Below are positions 5,072 through 12,528 of a stretch of 47,680 bases of DNA, one piece after another. The notes under the pieces were generated by a model, which did no database searches, was not told where the DNA came from, and worked only from the letters and a program-made list of their open reading frames with translations. Made by a program: the position numbers and the translations under genes. Position 1 is the first letter of the stretch, and every line of letters starts with the position of its first letter. The stretch comes from an uncultured Lachnospiraceae bacterium (GTDB lineage Bacteria > Bacillota > Clostridia > Lachnospirales > Lachnospiraceae), in NCBI GenBank assembly GCA_947173495.1, contig CAMWFQ010000031.1, positions 1-47,680 on the forward strand, read 5' to 3'.

Positions 5072-6286
5072 TTACTGGCAGATCACTCCATTGCTCTCCT
5101 GTGTTTCGTCCCTTACCAGCATATCTTCTATCACCATATAATTGGTCTCTCTTAGCGCGGATAATACATTTTCGACTTTCAATAACTCTTTAACTGATTC
5201 GTCTATCTTTTGATCAGCATATAATCGTTGGGAAGCTTCATACAATGAGTACACTTTTGCCACACTCTTTTGAATACTTCCAAAAAGTCCATTATATTGC
5301 CCGCCTTTCCACTGTAAGGAATGGTTTAATATTTTATTTCTTACTTCTCCCAGCATAAAATCAATTTCTTTTTCAAACTCTTCTTTTTCGTTCAGGATGG
5401 CCGCAATATAGGTATCGTACCGTTTTGCGCACTTCTCATAATTATCAGTCAGATCATATATCGTATTGAGAATATGGCTGTAATCGTGCATATCTAAAAG
5501 CTTATACTCTTCTGGTATTCCCACATCCTCCGCAAATGACGCACTCCCTTCTCTGTTTGTGATAACGCAGCACCCGCAAACTGCCGCTTCTCTTGGAATC
5601 CGATCCTTGCCTGGATGATTACCAAAATCGATATAAACCTTGGCACGGCACATAAGCAAAGCCATCTGTTCAGGACTTAGCCCCTGAAGCGGTATCCATT
5701 GAATGTCTTTCCTGCATTGCCCCATGATTTCTTTCAAATTCTCTGCGCCCTTTTTGGGGTTGTAGAGACATATATTCTCCCTGTGCATCTGATCCCTGTA
5801 TTCTGTTCCTATTTTTACAATGTCATCATTGATATAGTCTCCCAGATATAATATTTCCCTGATCCCAAATTCTTTTTGGACAAAATGATAAGCATATTTT
5901 GACTGCACAAGATGAATCACATCACTTCTGTCTTTCAGGCCAAAGATATCAGCCTTGCCTGCCTGCGCGATCGTATTATGATAAGCCAAAAAATAATTAT
6001 CGACTGACAGCCACCATATAATGGTCATGCCTTTTTGACAGACACGAAATATGCCAATCCCTGTCTCCGGAACTATCAATACAGACTGCTCATCATCTAT
6101 AAAAGAAACTACATATTTTACCTGATATTTCATGAATACATCCGGTGTTGGCGGCACAACCGGATTCACATTCCAATACAGCATATAATTTTCTATTCCC
6201 CGGTTGCTTAAATGCCAGCTGAGTTGATGTAATAATTCTGTTCCACCCGTAGCGAAATTAGCCGGGCAGGCAATAAAAATCCGCAT
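5072..6286 (-). CDS. Glycosyltransferase (GT-B like), probable flagellin-glycan gene
   Basis: A 404-residue cytoplasmic protein. The N-terminus (MRIFIACPANFATGGTELLH) looks like a GT-B acceptor domain with its glycine-rich loop. The C-terminal half carries a donor-domain signature (YIDFGNHPGKDRIPREAA followed by VITNREGSASF), as in capsule and glycoprotein transferases. The start is ATG 6286 with AGGAGAATAAGAA upstream. It follows the 619-residue glycosyltransferase by 28 bases. The pair lies just downstream of flagellin on the same strand, so glycosylation of flagellin or another surface protein is the likely role. Sugar donor and acceptor cannot be read from sequence. Confidence 0.75.
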   Translation of the reverse strand: MRIFIACPANFATGGTELLHQLSWHLSNRGIENYMLYWNVNPVVPPTPDVFMKYQVKYVVSFIDDEQSVLIVPETGIGIFRVCQKGMTIIWWLSVDNYFLAYHNTIAQAGKADIFGLKDRSDVIHLVQSKYAYHFVQKEFGIREILYLGDYINDDIVKIGTEYRDQMHRENICLYNPKKGAENLKEIMGQCRKDIQWIPLQGLSPEQMALLMCRAKVYIDFGNHPGKDRIPREAAVCGCCVITNREGSASFAEDVGIPEEYKLLDMHDYSHILNTIYDLTDNYEKCAKRYDTYIAAILNEKEEFEKEIDFMLGEVRNKILNHSLQWKGGQYNGLFGSIQKSVAKVYSLYEASQRLYADQKIDESVKELLKVENVLSALRETNYMVIEDMLVRDETQESNGVICQ

Positions 6287-6314
6287 TTCTTATTCTCCTG
6301 TTGTTTCTTTGAAC

Positions 6315-8174
6315 TTAATCCTGAAAAATAATATCCAATACTCTTTGCATTCTTTCCTTTAAATTATGCTCCTTCCGTACCTTCCTATATCCATTAATCG
6401 CGATCAACAGCCTCTCGTCCTCATGCTTCAGGTAATAGTCTATCTTTTCCTCAAGCTCCTGCAGATCATGGTAAACCTCCAGATCCTTCCCGATCTCAAA
6501 GTACTCCTCAAGCTCTGGCTGATAATTGGTCAGGCAAAAGCCCCCCACCGCCATAATATCCCAGACCCGTAAAGGGATTCCACTTTCAATACTTCTGGAG
6601 GTGATATTCAAATTGATTTTGCTCAGATAGAACACCTTGGGCATTGCGTTTCCATATTCGAGCCAGGGTCTTATTGTTACATTTTTTAAAATTTTTCCAG
6701 CGGAGTCGTCCGAATATACCACCACCGGGAAACGCTCCTGCAGGGTTTCCAGAATTCTGACCCGTTCTATTTCATTGCATTTCCGCACAAGCTTCATGCT
6801 TTCACAAAAATAGCGTTTATCGATATCCCAGGTCTTCCAGGTCTCCTCCGGTTGTTTTGACTGCATATAGGAAATCAGGCTATCAGAGGCTTTGTCAAAG
6901 ATCGACTTGTCCTTTTCCCATGTACACTCCATATCCTCTATGACCCTTTCCGCCTCTTTCAGATATTCCTCCCCCTCTTCATCAAAAATTTCTTCAAATC
7001 CCCGATTATTATACAGACGTCCCACAAAGGTTACGTCGCCGGCATACTTTTTTTCATCCCGCTTTCCGATACGTATCAGACCGAAATTATCTGTCTCCGG
7101 CGCCAGCGGAAGATAGAACAAATGCTTCAACCCGCGACTCCTTAACCGCTCGTATTGCTTTCTGTCAAATACGCTGATATAATTTACCTCATTTAAGGCC
7201 GCTTTACTGTATAGGTCCATAAGGGGAGAATCGTAAACCCATGCATAATAGGGGATATGAAAGCTCTGACAGGCGTTGGATAGGCCCTCGCTGAAATCGT
7301 AGGTTACCGCCAGATCAAAGTTTCCCTCCGCCAGAATCTCCTCCGCCATCTCCTGATCACGCCAAATTGCATTTCCATTGTCTTCTAACGTAAATTTAAC
7401 TTCCGGAATGGTCACGTTGTGGCCCAATTGTGTCAGTGCAAAGGGAATTCCGATCATATGGATCTGCTCACTGTGCATGAACAGAACCCGCTTTCTTTCA
7501 CAGTTTTCCTTCTCTATCTCCGGATACTCCTGCAGCAGGATCCTGCGGTTTTCATCATAATTCCAGAAGAATGGAGCACCGCAGGCATGGATCACCCAGT
7601 CTGTTTTCTGGGCGGGAACCACAATCTTATATCCGGCCCTCCGAAACTCCAGACACTGGGATATATCGTAAAAATCAAAGCCCCGAAAGATATCCTCTCT
7701 CCAGGGAAGGTCATACTGGGTCGCTATCAGCAGGCCGTCAACCGCTTCTACCTCCCTGTACCCCCGCTTAAAATGTTCAACGTTATCAAACCCCTCTTTT
7801 ATCATCTCTTCCAGGCGGTAAAAACTCCCGCATCGCTGCTCGTGCCACATAACCCCATCTTTTGAGAGTTTTTCTGCTCCCACAATTCCAACCATGCCAA
7901 TATTTGCATCTCTGCGGAAGGTTTTCAGCAGATGATCCAGGAAAAAGGGCTCCACAATAAATGTGTCCTGGTGCAGATAAATTTTGTATTTTGCATCAGA
8001 CGCAGCCATAGCGCTGTTATAGCCGGAGGTCATGGACAAAGCATCCCTTACCGTGAGTATATCCACGTGAAATCCATCCGGAATATGCAAAAGCCCCAAG
8101 TACATCATACATTCCCTGAGCTGCTGTTCATCGTTGACGCATAGAATAAAGCATATTTTGTGTCTGTCAACCAT
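6315..8174 (-). CDS. Two-domain glycosyltransferase (GT2-like plus CgeB-like)
   Basis: A 619-residue protein with two transferase-like parts. Residues ~1-230 resemble the GT-A 'glycosyltransferase-like' family: CFILCVNDEQ at the start, YKIYLHQDTFI with the QD pair in the DXD position, then VDGLLIATQYDLPW. Residues ~235-619 resemble CgeB/DUF3880 followed by a glycosyl-transferase-1_2 domain, with SIESGIPLRVWDIMAVGGF as donor loop. Such fusions are common in Lachnospiraceae beside flagellin genes and probably add sugars to flagellin; that role is inferred from context. The start ATG at 8174 overlaps the stop of the upstream gene by 8 bases, indicating coupled translation. Confidence 0.8.
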   Translation of the reverse strand: MVDRHKICFILCVNDEQQLRECMMYLGLLHIPDGFHVDILTVRDALSMTSGYNSAMAASDAKYKIYLHQDTFIVEPFFLDHLLKTFRRDANIGMVGIVGAEKLSKDGVMWHEQRCGSFYRLEEMIKEGFDNVEHFKRGYREVEAVDGLLIATQYDLPWREDIFRGFDFYDISQCLEFRRAGYKIVVPAQKTDWVIHACGAPFFWNYDENRRILLQEYPEIEKENCERKRVLFMHSEQIHMIGIPFALTQLGHNVTIPEVKFTLEDNGNAIWRDQEMAEEILAEGNFDLAVTYDFSEGLSNACQSFHIPYYAWVYDSPLMDLYSKAALNEVNYISVFDRKQYERLRSRGLKHLFYLPLAPETDNFGLIRIGKRDEKKYAGDVTFVGRLYNNRGFEEIFDEEGEEYLKEAERVIEDMECTWEKDKSIFDKASDSLISYMQSKQPEETWKTWDIDKRYFCESMKLVRKCNEIERVRILETLQERFPVVVYSDDSAGKILKNVTIRPWLEYGNAMPKVFYLSKINLNITSRSIESGIPLRVWDIMAVGGFCLTNYQPELEEYFEIGKDLEVYHDLQELEEKIDYYLKHEDERLLIAINGYRKVRKEHNLKERMQRVLDIIFQD

Positions 8175-8934: not shown

Positions 8935-9765
8935 TTAACCAAGTAAGGACAGTACGCCCTGATTTGCCTGATTGGACTGAGCAAGCATTGCCTGCCCCGC
9001 CTGGGCAAGGATCTGGTTGTTAGAGTATTTAACCATCTCTGTCGCCATATCCGTATCGCGGATCTGGCTCTCTGCCGCTGTGGTATTCTCCACTACATTG
9101 TCCAGATTGTTGATGGTGTGCTCAAGTCTGTTCTGGATCGCACCCAGATCGGAACGCTGTTTGCTGATGGCAGTGATCGCCGCCTTAATCGTGCTGATCG
9201 AGTTCTGAGCTCCACTCTGGGAAGTTACGCCGGAGCTCTTCAGGGTATTAACGGAAATTCCTGATGCATCCATCTTCTTAATCGATACCGAAATGGTATT
9301 GGTGCTTGCACCTTCCGCTCCCACATGCAGTGCGATTCCGCCGCTCCAGCTTCCATCCAGGAGATTTCTCTCATTGAATGTGGTAGTGGTGGCTACACGG
9401 TCAATCTCATTGATCAGGGCATCCACTTCGCTCTGGATATAGCTCTGGTCATCTGTCTGGTTGGTTCCGTTTGCTGCCTTCACAGCCAGCTCATTCATTC
9501 TCTGGAGCATGTCGTGCACTTCGTTCAGAGCGCCTTCTGCCGTCTGCACTGCGCTGATGCCGTCCTGAGCATTTAAGGAAGCCTGGGTAAGTCCTCTCAC
9601 CTGACGTCTCATTTTCTCGGAAATGGCAAGTCCTGCCGCATCGTCTGCCGCACGGTTTACCTTATAACCGGAAGAGAGCTTCTCTGTCGACTTGGCCTGT
9701 GTCTTGGTCGTCAGTCCTAACATTCTGTTAGAGTTCATCGCTGTTAAGTTGTGTTGTACTACCAT
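8935..9765 (-). CDS. hag: Flagellin
   Basis: The structural subunit of the flagellar filament, exported through the flagellar type III apparatus. At 276 residues it has both conserved coiled-coil ends: MVVQHNLTAMNSNRMLG with LSSGYKVNRAADDAAGLAIS at the N-terminus, and ESQIRDTDMATEMVKYSNNQ to LLG at the C-terminus. The central variable domain is short, as in minimal Clostridial flagellins. The start is ATG 9765 with GGAGGTAAT directly upstream. csrA lies 131 bases upstream on the same strand and a terminator follows. No sigma-28 promoter is recognisable in the csrA-hag gap, so expression probably depends on transcription from upstream of csrA. The leader carries CsrA-type sites. Confidence 0.97.
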   Translation of the reverse strand: MVVQHNLTAMNSNRMLGLTTKTQAKSTEKLSSGYKVNRAADDAAGLAISEKMRRQVRGLTQASLNAQDGISAVQTAEGALNEVHDMLQRMNELAVKAANGTNQTDDQSYIQSEVDALINEIDRVATTTTFNERNLLDGSWSGGIALHVGAEGASTNTISVSIKKMDASGISVNTLKSSGVTSQSGAQNSISTIKAAITAISKQRSDLGAIQNRLEHTINNLDNVVENTTAAESQIRDTDMATEMVKYSNNQILAQAGQAMLAQSNQANQGVLSLLG

Positions 9766-9772
9766 AATATTA

Positions 9773-9809
9773 CCTCCATGTGTTTAGTTTTTATGCAAAT
9801 CCATTTGCA
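9773..9809 (-). promoter_or_regulatory. Two CsrA-type sites in the flagellin leader
   Basis: A perfect inverted repeat at 9794-9809 gives, in the mRNA, stem UGCAA/UUGCA with hexaloop AUGGAU, the classic CsrA target (ANGGA in a hairpin loop). A second AUGGA is part of the ribosome site AUGGAGG at 9773-9779. The two GGA triplets are 25 nt apart, a spacing a CsrA dimer can bridge. By analogy with the hag leader of Bacillus subtilis, CsrA bound here would block ribosome access. Binding itself is inferred. Confidence 0.65.
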
Positions 9810-9895
9810 CAGTTCTTGTTTATAATAAACCGGATGCACCTGCTTTTTTGCCGGGCCCTGACGTTTTGCCGGCACACCCGTCTATTATCCCGGTT

Positions 9896-10159
9896 TCAAA
9901 GATTTCCCTTCGTGATGATTACGTTCTTTTTCTTCTTATACTTCTCCGGGTGCTCCTGCTCTCTGTAATATTTAGGGAGCTTCTTTTTCAGATCCGGATC
10001 CGTAATCCTTTTTTCCAGTACGCTGCTCCTGACAATATCAATCTCCTTTGGTGCATCAATCATGATTCTCATATGATTTCCGCTGCCTCCCAGAAAAACG
10101 ATCTTGATGTCATCTCCCAGAAGCAGGTATTCTTCAGCCGCTACAGACATTCTCAGCAT
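9896..10159 (-). CDS. csrA: CsrA-like RNA-binding translational regulator (divergent)
   Basis: CsrA dimers bind GGA motifs in mRNA leaders and, in flagellated Firmicutes, repress flagellin translation until FliW relieves them. The 87-residue product has the family core GDDIKIVFLGGSGNHMRI followed by DAPKEIDIVRSSVLEK, with the RNA-contacting arginine at position 44. Two oddities: the first strand reads MLRMSV, lacking the usual Arg-Lys at positions 6-7, and a basic tail of about 25 residues extends beyond the normal ~60-75. I start at ATG 10159 because AAGGAGG lies 5 bases upstream; the longer in-frame start at 10186 has none. It sits between the recombinase switch and hag, co-oriented with hag. 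fliW is not in the window. Confidence 0.85.
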   Translation of the reverse strand: MLRMSVAAEEYLLLGDDIKIVFLGGSGNHMRIMIDAPKEIDIVRSSVLEKRITDPDLKKKLPKYYREQEHPEKYKKKKNVIITKGNL

Positions 10160-10205
10160 TCTTTCCTCCTTGAATTTTTCAGACACTTTTCGGGATACTA
10201 ATTTA

Positions 10206-10232
10206 GTAACATAATGTATATTATGTTACCTC
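10206..10232 (+). repeat. Left recombination site of the invertible segment
   Basis: A 27-bp site whose first 24 bp form a dyad: arms GTAACATAAT and ATTATGTTAC around GTAT, then CTC. Read on the opposite strand, the right site at 11002-11028 matches it at 25 of 27 positions, including the asymmetric centre. The two differences fall at mirror-image arm positions (T/A here, C/G there), so each site keeps its own dyad. Arms of ~10 bp around a short centre suit a tyrosine recombinase. It lies 46 bases upstream of csrA. Confidence 0.8.
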
Positions 10233-10270
10233 ATATGACCAGAGCTGATTCCCGTGTACAGATTCTTTTT

Positions 10271-10278
10271 TTATCGGC
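10271..10278 (-). promoter_or_regulatory. Isolated sigma-28 -10 element facing csrA
   Basis: On the minus strand the sequence reads GCCGATAA, an exact sigma-28 -10 box, at the left inner end of the invertible segment. The matching -35 (TAAA about 15 bases upstream) is absent: that position is T-rich. It may give weak basal transcription of csrA-hag in the present orientation, or be a decayed promoter. Confidence 0.35.
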
Positions 10279-10319
10279 ATGAAGCTGTGGAGAAAAAGCC
10301 GCCCGACAGACGTTCCTTT

Positions 10320-10913
10320 TTAAAGATTAATATCACGGAAAATATTGTCTCTGTCGTCCTGCTCTATTCCCAGATAGCGAACGGTGATCTGAAAAGATGA
10401 ATGGTTAAAAATGTTCATGAGCAACGCCGGCTCGGCTCCCTGCTGCCAGGCATGGTATCCAAAGGTCTTCCGCAACGAGTGACAACTGATTACGCCATCT
10501 AAATGGCAGGCGGCCGCCGCTTTTTTGATGATTCGAAATGCCTGTACCCGGGAGATGGGATGCTCCTTTTGTCGGCTGTTCTCGAAAAGAAAATCTTCCG
10601 CCTTCATTGTCCGTCCCTGTTCTTCCAGATACCGTTTATATTCCATAAGTGCATTCTTTACATTCTGATTGATCAGGATCAGGGAACTCTTATCTGTTTT
10701 CTGCTCTGTAACCGACAGGTGTTCTCTGTATCTCTGCCGCTCAAAATCATAGACATCGCCCCATTGCAGCTCCAGAATATCCGAGATCCTGAGCGCCGTA
10801 TTGAGCCCCACTACCACCAGCAGATAGTTTCGTCTGTTTGGATACTCCACCTGATAATATGCCTTGAGTTGGTTTAAGTCTTCTTCCTTTCGTACTGGCT
10901 GTGCCGTATTCAT
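10320..10913 (-). CDS. Small tyrosine recombinase (FimB/RecV type DNA invertase)
   Basis: A site-specific recombinase that cuts and rejoins DNA through a tyrosine-DNA link. The 197 residues are essentially only the catalytic domain, the size of FimB/FimE and other invertases rather than of integrases with an N-terminal arm-binding domain. The full catalytic set is visible: R42 (TALRISDIL), K72, H145 and R148 (CHSLRKTFG), H171 (NHSSF) and Y180 (VRYLGI). The start is ATG 10913 with AGGAGGTAAAGT upstream. It lies wholly between two inverted recombination-like sites and beside csrA-flagellin, so the likely job is inversion of its own segment and the promoter within it. Confidence 0.9.
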   Translation of the reverse strand: MNTAQPVRKEEDLNQLKAYYQVEYPNRRNYLLVVVGLNTALRISDILELQWGDVYDFERQRYREHLSVTEQKTDKSSLILINQNVKNALMEYKRYLEEQGRTMKAEDFLFENSRQKEHPISRVQAFRIIKKAAAACHLDGVISCHSLRKTFGYHAWQQGAEPALLMNIFNHSSFQITVRYLGIEQDDRDNIFRDINL

Positions 10914-10956
10914 ACTTTACCTCCTGAAAAAATTTTAATTATTTTGGTTTCAGCCC

Positions 10957-10983
10957 TAAAGTTTTATCTTTGGCTGCCGATAT
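10957..10983 (+). promoter_or_regulatory. Near-perfect sigma-28 (flagellar) promoter
   Basis: TAAAGTTT at 10957-10964, an 11-base spacer, then GCCGATAT at 10976-10983. This matches the enterobacterial FliA consensus (TAAAGTTT-N11-GCCGATAA) at 15 of 16 bases and also fits Bacillus SigD promoters. It points right, away from csrA and flagellin, and runs within ~20 bases into a hairpin that looks like a terminator. No flagellar gene lies in the direction it faces; the gene there (MFS) is on the opposite strand. Confidence 0.85.
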
Positions 10984-10995
10984 ATAAAGCGTAAT

Positions 10996-11037
10996 AAAAA
11001 AGAGGTAACACAATATACATTGTGTTACCTCTTTTTT
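10996..11037 (+). terminator. Right recombination site doubling as a terminator-like hairpin
   Basis: The right site (11002-11028) sits in a 19-bp perfect stem, 10996-11014 with 11019-11037, loop ATAC, ending in CCTCTTTTTT. Transcription from the sigma-28 promoter would enter it about 15 bases after initiation and could stop here. The left site has the same dyad core but no T tract. Confidence 0.65.
11002..11028 (-). repeat. Right recombination site of the invertible segment
   Basis: A 27-bp site in inverted orientation to the one at 10206-10232 with 25 of 27 identities. Arms here are GTAACACAAT and ATTGTGTTAC. Inverted orientation predicts inversion rather than deletion of the intervening DNA. 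Confidence 0.8.
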
Positions 11038-11044
11038 ATGCGCA

Positions 11045-11209
11045 GGCCCGTACAGATGAAGTTGTTGCTGACTCAACGTACGGGCCGCGCAGCGAGCAGG
11101 GGAAGAAGACTCTTCCCTGCTCGATTTATGCAGGCCCCCACAGATGAAGTTGTTGCTGACTCAACATGTGGGCCGCGCGGCGAGTAGAGGGAAAAGCCTC
11201 CTCTACTCA
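11045..11209 (-). repeat. Two units of an 88-bp structured repeat downstream of the MFS gene
   Basis: Two hairpins (11045-11086 and 11133-11174) lie exactly 88 bp apart, separated by a second hairpin type (GCGAGCAGGG...CCCTGCTCG at about 11091-11123); another copy of the latter at 11181-11208 overlaps the MFS stop codon. Outer stems differ between units (GGCCCGTAC with GTACGGGCC; GGCCCACAT with ATGTGGGCC, near pairing) while loops are conserved (ACAGATGAAGTTGTTGCTGA). It is the same family as the tandem array at 20190-20498, read on the other strand. Confidence 0.75.
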
Positions 11210-12528
11210 TCCTGTCCTTTTTCTTCCAGCGCCCATATATCCTTACTTCTCCGGAAATAAAGACACACGCCAATTCCCGCAAATGCGATCACAAAGAACA
11301 GAAATGCAGCGCCTGAGCCTTTTCCAACTCCGAACATCTTTTTCAGAATACTTCCCTCTCTCTGCAACGCCATAACCGGTTCAAATACCTGATCTACCAG
11401 AAAGCCTCCCAAAAAATATCCGATGGGTATGGTGAAAAACTGCAGAGAATTTCTCACGGAATATACCCGCCCCTGCATCTCTTCCGGCACATGCAGCCGC
11501 ATAATGGCATCCAGGTTCGTGCTCATAAGAGGAATCGCTATCCACCCCAGAAATCCTCCGATGCACCAGACAAAAGGCTCTCTTCCGAAAGCCAGCAGAA
11601 AGTTTTCCGTACTCATGGAAAACAGCAGGCAATTACAGATCACCCTTACTCTGCTCTTTGGTTTCTTCACAAAGGACGCCAGAACACTTCCTGCAAAGGT
11701 GGATAAACCCACTACTGCATTTACCAGCCCCAGAACTTTTTCGCTTCCTCCGTTTCTTGAAAGCATCATCGCCGGGAAAGCCGCGTCATAGACAGATGCC
11801 ACCAGATTGATGGCTGCCAGAAACATGATCAGAGAAAAAATCCCCCTCTCCTCTCTCAGATAAACAAGTCCTTTCTTCGCCGCCGTTAAAAGCTTTTCCT
11901 GCTCAGATCCACTCTCTTTTTCCTCTGGAATCCGGATACCGAAGGCCAGCGTCAAAAATGCCGCTCCAAAGGTAAACAGGTCAAAGGCCACAATGGCATC
12001 CATTCCGGCAAGCCCCAAAATCGCCGTGGCAATAACCGGCGTCATAATTGAATTTAAGGAACTTGCAAAATAACGCAGTCCTCCCACACGCTGATAGTGT
12101 TTCTTAGGCAGGACTCTTGTGGTCGCCACCTCGGAGGCTGGCTGCTGCACAGTGTTCATGATGCCGTTTACGCCGTTGATTACATACAGATGCCAGATCT
12201 GCAAAGCGTCCTTTTTCAGCAGAATCAGCATCACTACCGTGGTCAGCGCTGCCAGCGTATCGCATACCAGCATGGTGACCTTCTTATTCCACTTATCGCT
12301 CAATGCGCCCGCAAAAATACTGAGCAGCACATAGGGCGCGTAGGAGCTTACCATAAGCAGCGCCGTCATAAGCGCAGATCCCTTTTGGGTATAAGACCAG
12401 ATCACCAGCGCATAGCTTGTCATGGCGCTCCCCAGTCCCGAAAAGGATTGGGTACTCCACAACAGCAGATAAGTTTTCATCTCTCCCAATGTACGGAAAA
12501 GATCTTTCGATTCCATATGATTTTTCAT
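11203..12528 (-). CDS. MFS efflux transporter, DHA3/macrolide-efflux type
   Basis: A 441-residue protein with about 12 hydrophobic segments, typical of major facilitator drug:proton antiporters. The N-terminal pattern (LWSTQSFSGLGSAMTSYALV, then FAGALSDKWNKK as the loop 2-3 motif) resembles the Mef/DHA3 family of macrolide and other drug exporters. EEMQGRVYSVRNSLQF is the conserved motif before helix 10. Substrate is not predictable. The start is ATG 12528 with AAAAGGAG upstream. The ~200-base leader holds a possible leader peptide and inverted repeat, and 88-bp repeat hairpins lie at its 3' end. No operon partner. Confidence 0.85.
   Translation of the reverse strand: MKNHMESKDLFRTLGEMKTYLLLWSTQSFSGLGSAMTSYALVIWSYTQKGSALMTALLMVSSYAPYVLLSIFAGALSDKWNKKVTMLVCDTLAALTTVVMLILLKKDALQIWHLYVINGVNGIMNTVQQPASEVATTRVLPKKHYQRVGGLRYFASSLNSIMTPVIATAILGLAGMDAIVAFDLFTFGAAFLTLAFGIRIPEEKESGSEQEKLLTAAKKGLVYLREERGIFSLIMFLAAINLVASVYDAAFPAMMLSRNGGSEKVLGLVNAVVGLSTFAGSVLASFVKKPKSRVRVICNCLLFSMSTENFLLAFGREPFVWCIGGFLGWIAIPLMSTNLDAIMRLHVPEEMQGRVYSVRNSLQFFTIPIGYFLGGFLVDQVFEPVMALQREGSILKKMFGVGKGSGAAFLFFVIAFAGIGVCLYFRRSKDIWALEEKGQDE

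Follow-up and report, generated by a model that had tools for sequence, protein, structure and literature searches.

The question raised by this locus is whether a tyrosine recombinase gene and a sigma-28-type promoter, enclosed together between two inverted palindromes upstream of a csrA-flagellin pair in an uncultured Lachnospiraceae bacterium, constitute a switch and, if so, in which state that switch was sequenced. In the window, i.e., the whole 47,680-nucleotide stretch analyzed here (contig CAMWFQ010000031.1), the minus strand carries in order fliC, csrA, the recombinase gene and an MFS gene (11203–12528). The recombinase gene (10320–10913, minus strand, 197 aa) lies within a 769-bp segment (10233–11001) that is predicted to invert, the same segment being found reversed in one relative, and that is bounded by a proximal, csrA-side site at 10206–10232, with a GTAT core, and a distal site at 11002–11028. 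These two 27-nt arms are complementary at 25 of 27 positions in inverted orientation and each is itself palindromic, in agreement with the pair of inverted dyad sites claimed in a preliminary description of this DNA. The csrA paralogue (9896–10159, minus strand), first gene of the putative switched operon, begins with an ATG at 10159 that is preceded by AAGGAGG (an alternative earlier GTG is at 10186), and with this ATG the left site is indeed 46 bp upstream of csrA, as had been stated. The second gene of the operon is the flagellin gene fliC (8935–9765, minus strand, 276 aa, with Flagellin_N and Flagellin_C), and the flagellin leader is predicted to fold into a CsrA-site-like hairpin with a UGGA loop (9792–9811, minus strand). 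Two direct repeats of about 74 nt (84%, with 88 bp spacing; 11042–11203), each a GC-rich dyad, lie immediately outside the distal site. Downstream of fliC there is a glycosyltransferase pair (DUF3880 and Glyco_trans_1_2; 5072–8174), which is perhaps connected with flagellin glycosylation.

The enclosed protein matches PF00589 (Phage_integrase) with 80.6 bits (cut-off 27.1, E = 1.5e-22), and its catalytic positions, read by eye from alignments to the XerC-like 4a8e and to XerA 5hxy, are all filled: R (NTALRIS), K (EQKTDK), HxxR (HSLR), H (NHSS) and Y (VRYLG). The earlier identification of a 197-residue tyrosine recombinase with a complete catalytic set is thereby confirmed. Its scores fall below the curated cut-offs of the narrower models, both the FimB/FimE-type ones of NCBIfam (PRK09870/PRK09871: 41.8 and 33.4 bits, cut-offs 222 and 221) and those for XerC, XerD and XerA (72.7, 59.4 and 49.7 bits, cut-offs 220, 329.6 and 335.15). 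The proximal site (10206–10232) bears a resemblance to dif, on which XerCD acts in E. coli; a relationship to XerCD/dif was rejected, the Xer models scoring far below cut-off.

We consider it highly probable that the locus is a self-contained, invertible phase-variation cassette that was sequenced in its OFF state. We infer that this recombinase would carry out strand exchange between the inverted palindromes, reversing the intervening stretch of approximately 770 bp. With the cassette OFF, the sigma-28 promoter would fire outward and be halted by a terminator on the distal site, such that csrA-fliC would be off or low; in the ON state, the same promoter would face csrA-fliC across a composite site lacking the terminator's outer arm and T-run, and sigma-28, when active, would drive transcription of csrA and its flagellin. 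Translation of that flagellin would then probably be tuned by the divergent CsrA, through binding of the GGA hairpin in the leader. The candidate promoter, TAAAGTTT-N11-GCCGATAT (10957–10983, plus strand), points out of the right end of the segment, away from csrA, and fits the sigma-28 consensus at 15 of 16 positions; it is the one site in the window to score at least 23, a score not reached in any of 20 first-order Markov sequences of the window's size. No sigma-28-type site scoring at least 21 was found ahead of csrA or fliC. The preliminary description had made the same points, namely an outward sigma-28 promoter matching at 15/16 and a flagellin without a recognizable one of its own, and its arithmetic placing the promoter at 10251–10277 after inversion is correct.

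How far the arrangement extends can be gauged from the relatives of the recombinase. Of 37 genomes belonging to the same genus, 15 carry a match (E ≤ 1e-30, own genome included); matches also occur in 30 of 397 genomes drawn from the family (E ≤ 1e-40; a second draw gave 30 of 396 in nearly the same genomes, and the new G540 and G541 were left out of the analysis), in 39 of 77 genomes of one other genus and in 1 of 3 and 2 of 10 genomes of two more genera, and at 20 loci among GTDB220 contigs. Sequence deduplication of recombinase matches longer than 120 residues, distant integrases included, gives 129 distinct loci, and in 94 of these a csrA or flagellin gene starts at most 1.5 kb downstream; the other 35 have no such start within that distance, contig ends included. 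Paired sites (score at least 13) are present in 82 of the 94, a count from which L026, with an internally deleted recombinase, is excluded. Of the 12 loci without paired sites, some are at contig ends and others have perhaps decayed; a sigma-28 site scoring at least 20.5 is found in none of them, partly owing to contig ends. The tree was computed from the 124 of the 129 recombinases that read open, five rows being dropped for stops, frame or length.

Several of these loci deserve individual mention. Apparent decay is seen in L026, in L029, L049, L054, L092 and L197, which have neither paired sites nor promoter, and in the codirectional L084 and L202, where a flagellin is present and csrA is absent. 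Of the 35 loci with no csrA or flagellin start, some adjoin genes for glycan synthesis and one adjoins a gene that, judged by eye, encodes a chemotaxis receptor; these related recombinases (L103, L105, L093 and L104) suggest that the same type of switch acts on other surface genes. The record titles of L010, L016 and L024 name Gastranaerophilales, Blautia and Ruminococcus, and the loci group with Lachnospiraceae; these contigs are probably mis-binned or mislabelled. Many cassettes (e.g., L009, L035, L058, L061, L068 and L119) lie a few hundred bases from a contig end, and mixed orientations could produce such ends.

The site cores bear on whether the palindromes recombine, because strand exchange needs matching cores, and identity within a locus despite diversity between loci is its expected trace. 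Among 81 loci (L085, with no AAC/GTT-bounded core, was left out), there are 46 different 8-nt cores, yet the two cores of one locus are identical in inverted orientation in 60 loci and in direct orientation in none. When partners were shuffled among loci, the mean was 3.0 and the maximum 10 identical inverted cores in 1000 trials, as against the 60 real ones, although the loci are related and these counts are hence not independent. The inverted match beats the direct match in 79 of 82 site pairs, the exceptions being L007, L073 and L151. This covariation points to the paired palindromes acting as recombination sites. Cassettes of the same genome share a core in 0 of the 14 pairs scored, with about 0.4 expected by chance, so that core differences among same-genome cassettes alone say little. 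Agreement between the two sites is lower in their outer 10 nt (8.1 of 10 positions) than in their inner 10 nt (9.4 of 10; 81 loci), which possibly reflects unequal half-sites.

A comparable regularity is seen in the promoter. Scored at 20.5 or above, it is directed away from csrA in 80 of the 82 paired-site loci, toward csrA in one (L151), and is undetected in one (L008, where the sites are present and the promoter candidate is weak and 12-nt-spaced); all 80 away-pointing promoters sit between the recombinase and the distal site. The recombinase gene is codirectional with csrA in nine of the 82 loci and divergent in 73, and that of the window falls in an eight-row codirectional clade (support 100/94). 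Since this layout follows clade, recombinase orientation was rejected as a phase marker, and it is the promoter direction that can be seen as the conserved state. Past the distal site, the next gene could be scored in 70 loci (a further 11 have short flanks): it is convergent in 44 of them and codirectional in 26, and the largest gene family found there accounts for 14 of the 70 and is convergent. Thus, no common outward target is seen among these loci, and the notion that the outward promoter serves a conserved distal gene was rejected.

The outward transcript would instead run into the distal site, which in the window carries a terminator-like, perfect 21-bp hairpin followed by a T-run (10994–11039, plus strand; 100% complementary), with a folding energy of −33.5 kcal/mol (z −11.25) versus a weak hairpin without a T-run toward csrA at the left site (−11.2 kcal/mol, z −1.27). 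With terminator-like defined as a minimum free energy of −12 kcal/mol or below together with a T-run of at least 4, and with L151 and two contig-end loci (L062 and L071) left out, 70 of 79 loci qualify for the outward OFF transcript across the distal site, as against 2 of 79 for the junction read toward csrA after in-silico inversion. In all 79, stability is greater for the OFF hairpin than for its ON counterpart; the contrast is not a clean one, as a folding energy of −12 kcal/mol or below, without a T-run, persists at 23 of the 79 junctions inverted in silico. Plain bidirectional terminators were considered as an account of the palindromes and rejected.

A search of related genomes for the opposite orientation found one case, L151, against 80 OFF. 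Its between-site segment matches those of six relatives (L152–L156 and L160) on the minus strand with about 73–75% identity, its csrA-fliC flank and outer distal flank match the same six on the plus strand, and the switch-over between strands falls inside the sites. The promoter of L151, TAAAGTAT-N11-GCCGATAT, faces csrA, and its recombinase gene is codirectional with csrA in a seven-row clade (100/99) in which the other six are divergent and OFF. By these alignments, L151 is a natural ON state that arose by precise inversion in evolution; as its segment differs from those of its relatives by about 25%, it is proof of inversion in evolution and not in culture. Both orientations thus occur among relatives (80 OFF and one ON), not within the window's own species; the single ON locus among 81 promoter-bearing ones gives no sign of frequent switching, and no pair of near-identical genomes with opposite cassette orientations was found. 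The preliminary reading of the locus as an invertible cassette in the OFF state is accordingly strengthened by four lines of evidence, i.e., the core covariation, the uniformly outward promoter, the hairpin particular to the OFF state and L151 itself. At L151 and L152 (G526:C5 and G523:C12), several tandem flagellin genes lie downstream of the switch, and one inversion may control the whole array.

The rarity of the ON state might also be accounted for by cassettes that were once invertible and are now locked, the sites serving as terminators, the promoter surviving as a relic and the flagellin remaining silent. Such a lock would sit well with the single state shared by 80 of 81 promoter-bearing loci and with the 12 of 94 loci that lack paired sites. 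However, a lock would allow decay, and what is seen is that the cores still match within a locus while differing between loci, that 80 of 82 loci retain a near-consensus promoter and that the recombinase is open in 124 of the 129; these retained features, along with the inverted L151, make a lock very unlikely in our estimation. Even less credible, to the point that we give it hardly any weight, is a mobile element with terminal palindromes that by chance inserted upstream of csrA-fliC and has a promoter serving its own ends. The palindromes do flank a recombinase as termini would, and relatives of the recombinase also adjoin other genes, but 94 of 129 loci occupy the same place upstream of csrA or flagellin with a fixed promoter position, the recombinase relatives sought in viral contigs amounted to one stretch and none confirmed, and the change recorded in L151 is an inversion rather than an excision.

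If the locus is, as we hold, an invertible phase-variation cassette, what it would switch is one flagellin among others. The switch-linked CsrA scores 61 bits with Pfam PF02599 (cut-off 27) and 39.8 with the NCBIfam equivalog (cut-off 73), and the own genome encodes a canonical FliW and a 72-aa CsrA together on another contig (C8), at about 4 kb from a flagellin gene. This unswitched flagellin comes with a sigma-28-type site of its own, and its leader contains a GGA hairpin; the earlier statement that flagellin is OFF can hence refer to the switched flagellin and not to flagellin overall. The genome also has a second cassette, L085 (G000:C9:1–3200), with a recombinase 55–56% identical, a divergent layout, an OFF promoter, a csrA of its own and a flagellin whose middle region is larger; the contig of L085 begins about 150 bp outside the distal site. 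A partial recombinase copy elsewhere in this genome (L003/L086, G000:C13:22543–22899) has no flagellin nearby.

The leaders themselves differ between the two kinds of flagellin locus. A GGA-loop hairpin of at least six pairs is present in 72 of 80 switch-locus flagellin leaders, with 1.9 expected from mononucleotide shuffles, and in 37 of 40 such leaders it begins 42–50 nt upstream of the start codon. Of flagellin loci that lack a recombinase, 13 were examined, from the own genome and from eight relatives; 10 combine a sigma-28-type site with a five-pair GGA hairpin and the remaining three have neither. The unswitched hairpins are shorter and of another kind (five pairs, with loops of the ATGGAA or TGGA types), and this difference suggests, from the predicted folds, a private CsrA-hairpin pair for each switch. 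The same difference weighs on a variant of the main reading, according to which the switched CsrA would repress the other flagellin like FljA of Salmonella, with inversion swapping one filament for another. The variant draws on the unswitched flagellin of the own genome, with its sigma-28-type site and leader GGA hairpin, and on the separate canonical fliW-csrA; nonetheless, the unswitched leaders examined carry the different, shorter hairpin, and G027 has no unswitched flagellin at E ≤ 1e-40. We regard it as a somewhat unlikely refinement.

The fljBA promoter of Salmonella is sigma-28-dependent, and it is with this system that the closest parallel can be struck. In the published accounts, hixL and hixR bound an invertible segment that contains hin together with the fljBA promoter (PMC9368917, PMC3535392), and FljA acts on fliC (PMC9368917, PMC3535392, PMC10399903). 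As in that system, the recombinase gene and the flagellin-operon promoter here both lie inside the invertible segment, the operon also encodes a regulator of flagellin expression, and a second flagellin is located elsewhere. Hin, however, is a serine recombinase (PMC11868660) and the one here is a tyrosine recombinase, so that the cassette is not a member of the Hin family; it is further set apart by different sites, a terminator-like hairpin on one of them (the distal), a divergent csrA upstream of flagellin rather than fljA downstream, and near-universal occurrence in the OFF state. The fimS/FimB/FimE system of E. coli likewise couples a small (about 200 aa) tyrosine-type invertase with an invertible promoter, and there is weak profile similarity to the recombinase here (PRK09871, 41.8 bits), but the fim switch is short and has the promoter only (PMC5903667), whereas here the recombinase is inside. 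With the flg switch and RecV of C. difficile the cassette shares a tyrosine recombinase, a clostridial host and ON/OFF control of flagella; yet the flg switch is described as acting via Rho in a 5′ leader with no functional promoter, and RecV acting on several separate switches (PMC7446863), unlike the segment here with its internal sigma-28-type site.

An 844-bp invertible segment that encloses a recombinase ORF is reported for a fimbrial locus of Providencia stuartii (PMC5903667, which also reports inversions near chemotaxis genes in Clostridia). The Providencia case differs in concerning fimbriae, in belonging to Gammaproteobacteria and in its 14-bp imperfect repeats, the recombinase type and promoter being unstated there. 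Given this segment and that of Hin, the preliminary claim that such a layout had not been described does not stand; for the present cassette itself, no prior description was found in the open-access PMC literature, and one elsewhere is possible. The proposed control of translation has its precedent in the FliW-CsrA-Hag system of B. subtilis, where CsrA acts on the flagellin leader and Shine-Dalgarno sequence (PMC6529632); the flagellin leaders here carry GGA hairpins, and the difference lies in the extra divergent csrA inside the switched operon, with the canonical fliW-csrA on C8. A defined gut community has been surveyed for invertons (PMC11892184), and the main text of that study contains no words starting with flagell, motility, lachno or roseburia. 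PhaseFinder is described as seeking invertible intergenic regions (PMC11868660), and segments that enclose a recombinase may escape surveys of this type.

Beyond the single locus, we find ourselves evenly poised between accepting and doubting a broader proposal, namely that gut Lachnospiraceae evolved the Hin logic independently with a tyrosine recombinase, giving rise to an insulated module of flagellin, CsrA and leader hairpin beside an unswitched flagellin, often with several such modules of different core sequence per genome and with host immunity or biased recombination keeping nearly all of them OFF. Hin logic would then have originated a second time, with an unrelated recombinase. In gut Lachnospiraceae, flagellin is a prominent target of immunity, and a family-wide switch would make the hiding of flagellin by phase variation in commensals directly testable, as it would the question of why nearly all assembled copies are OFF.
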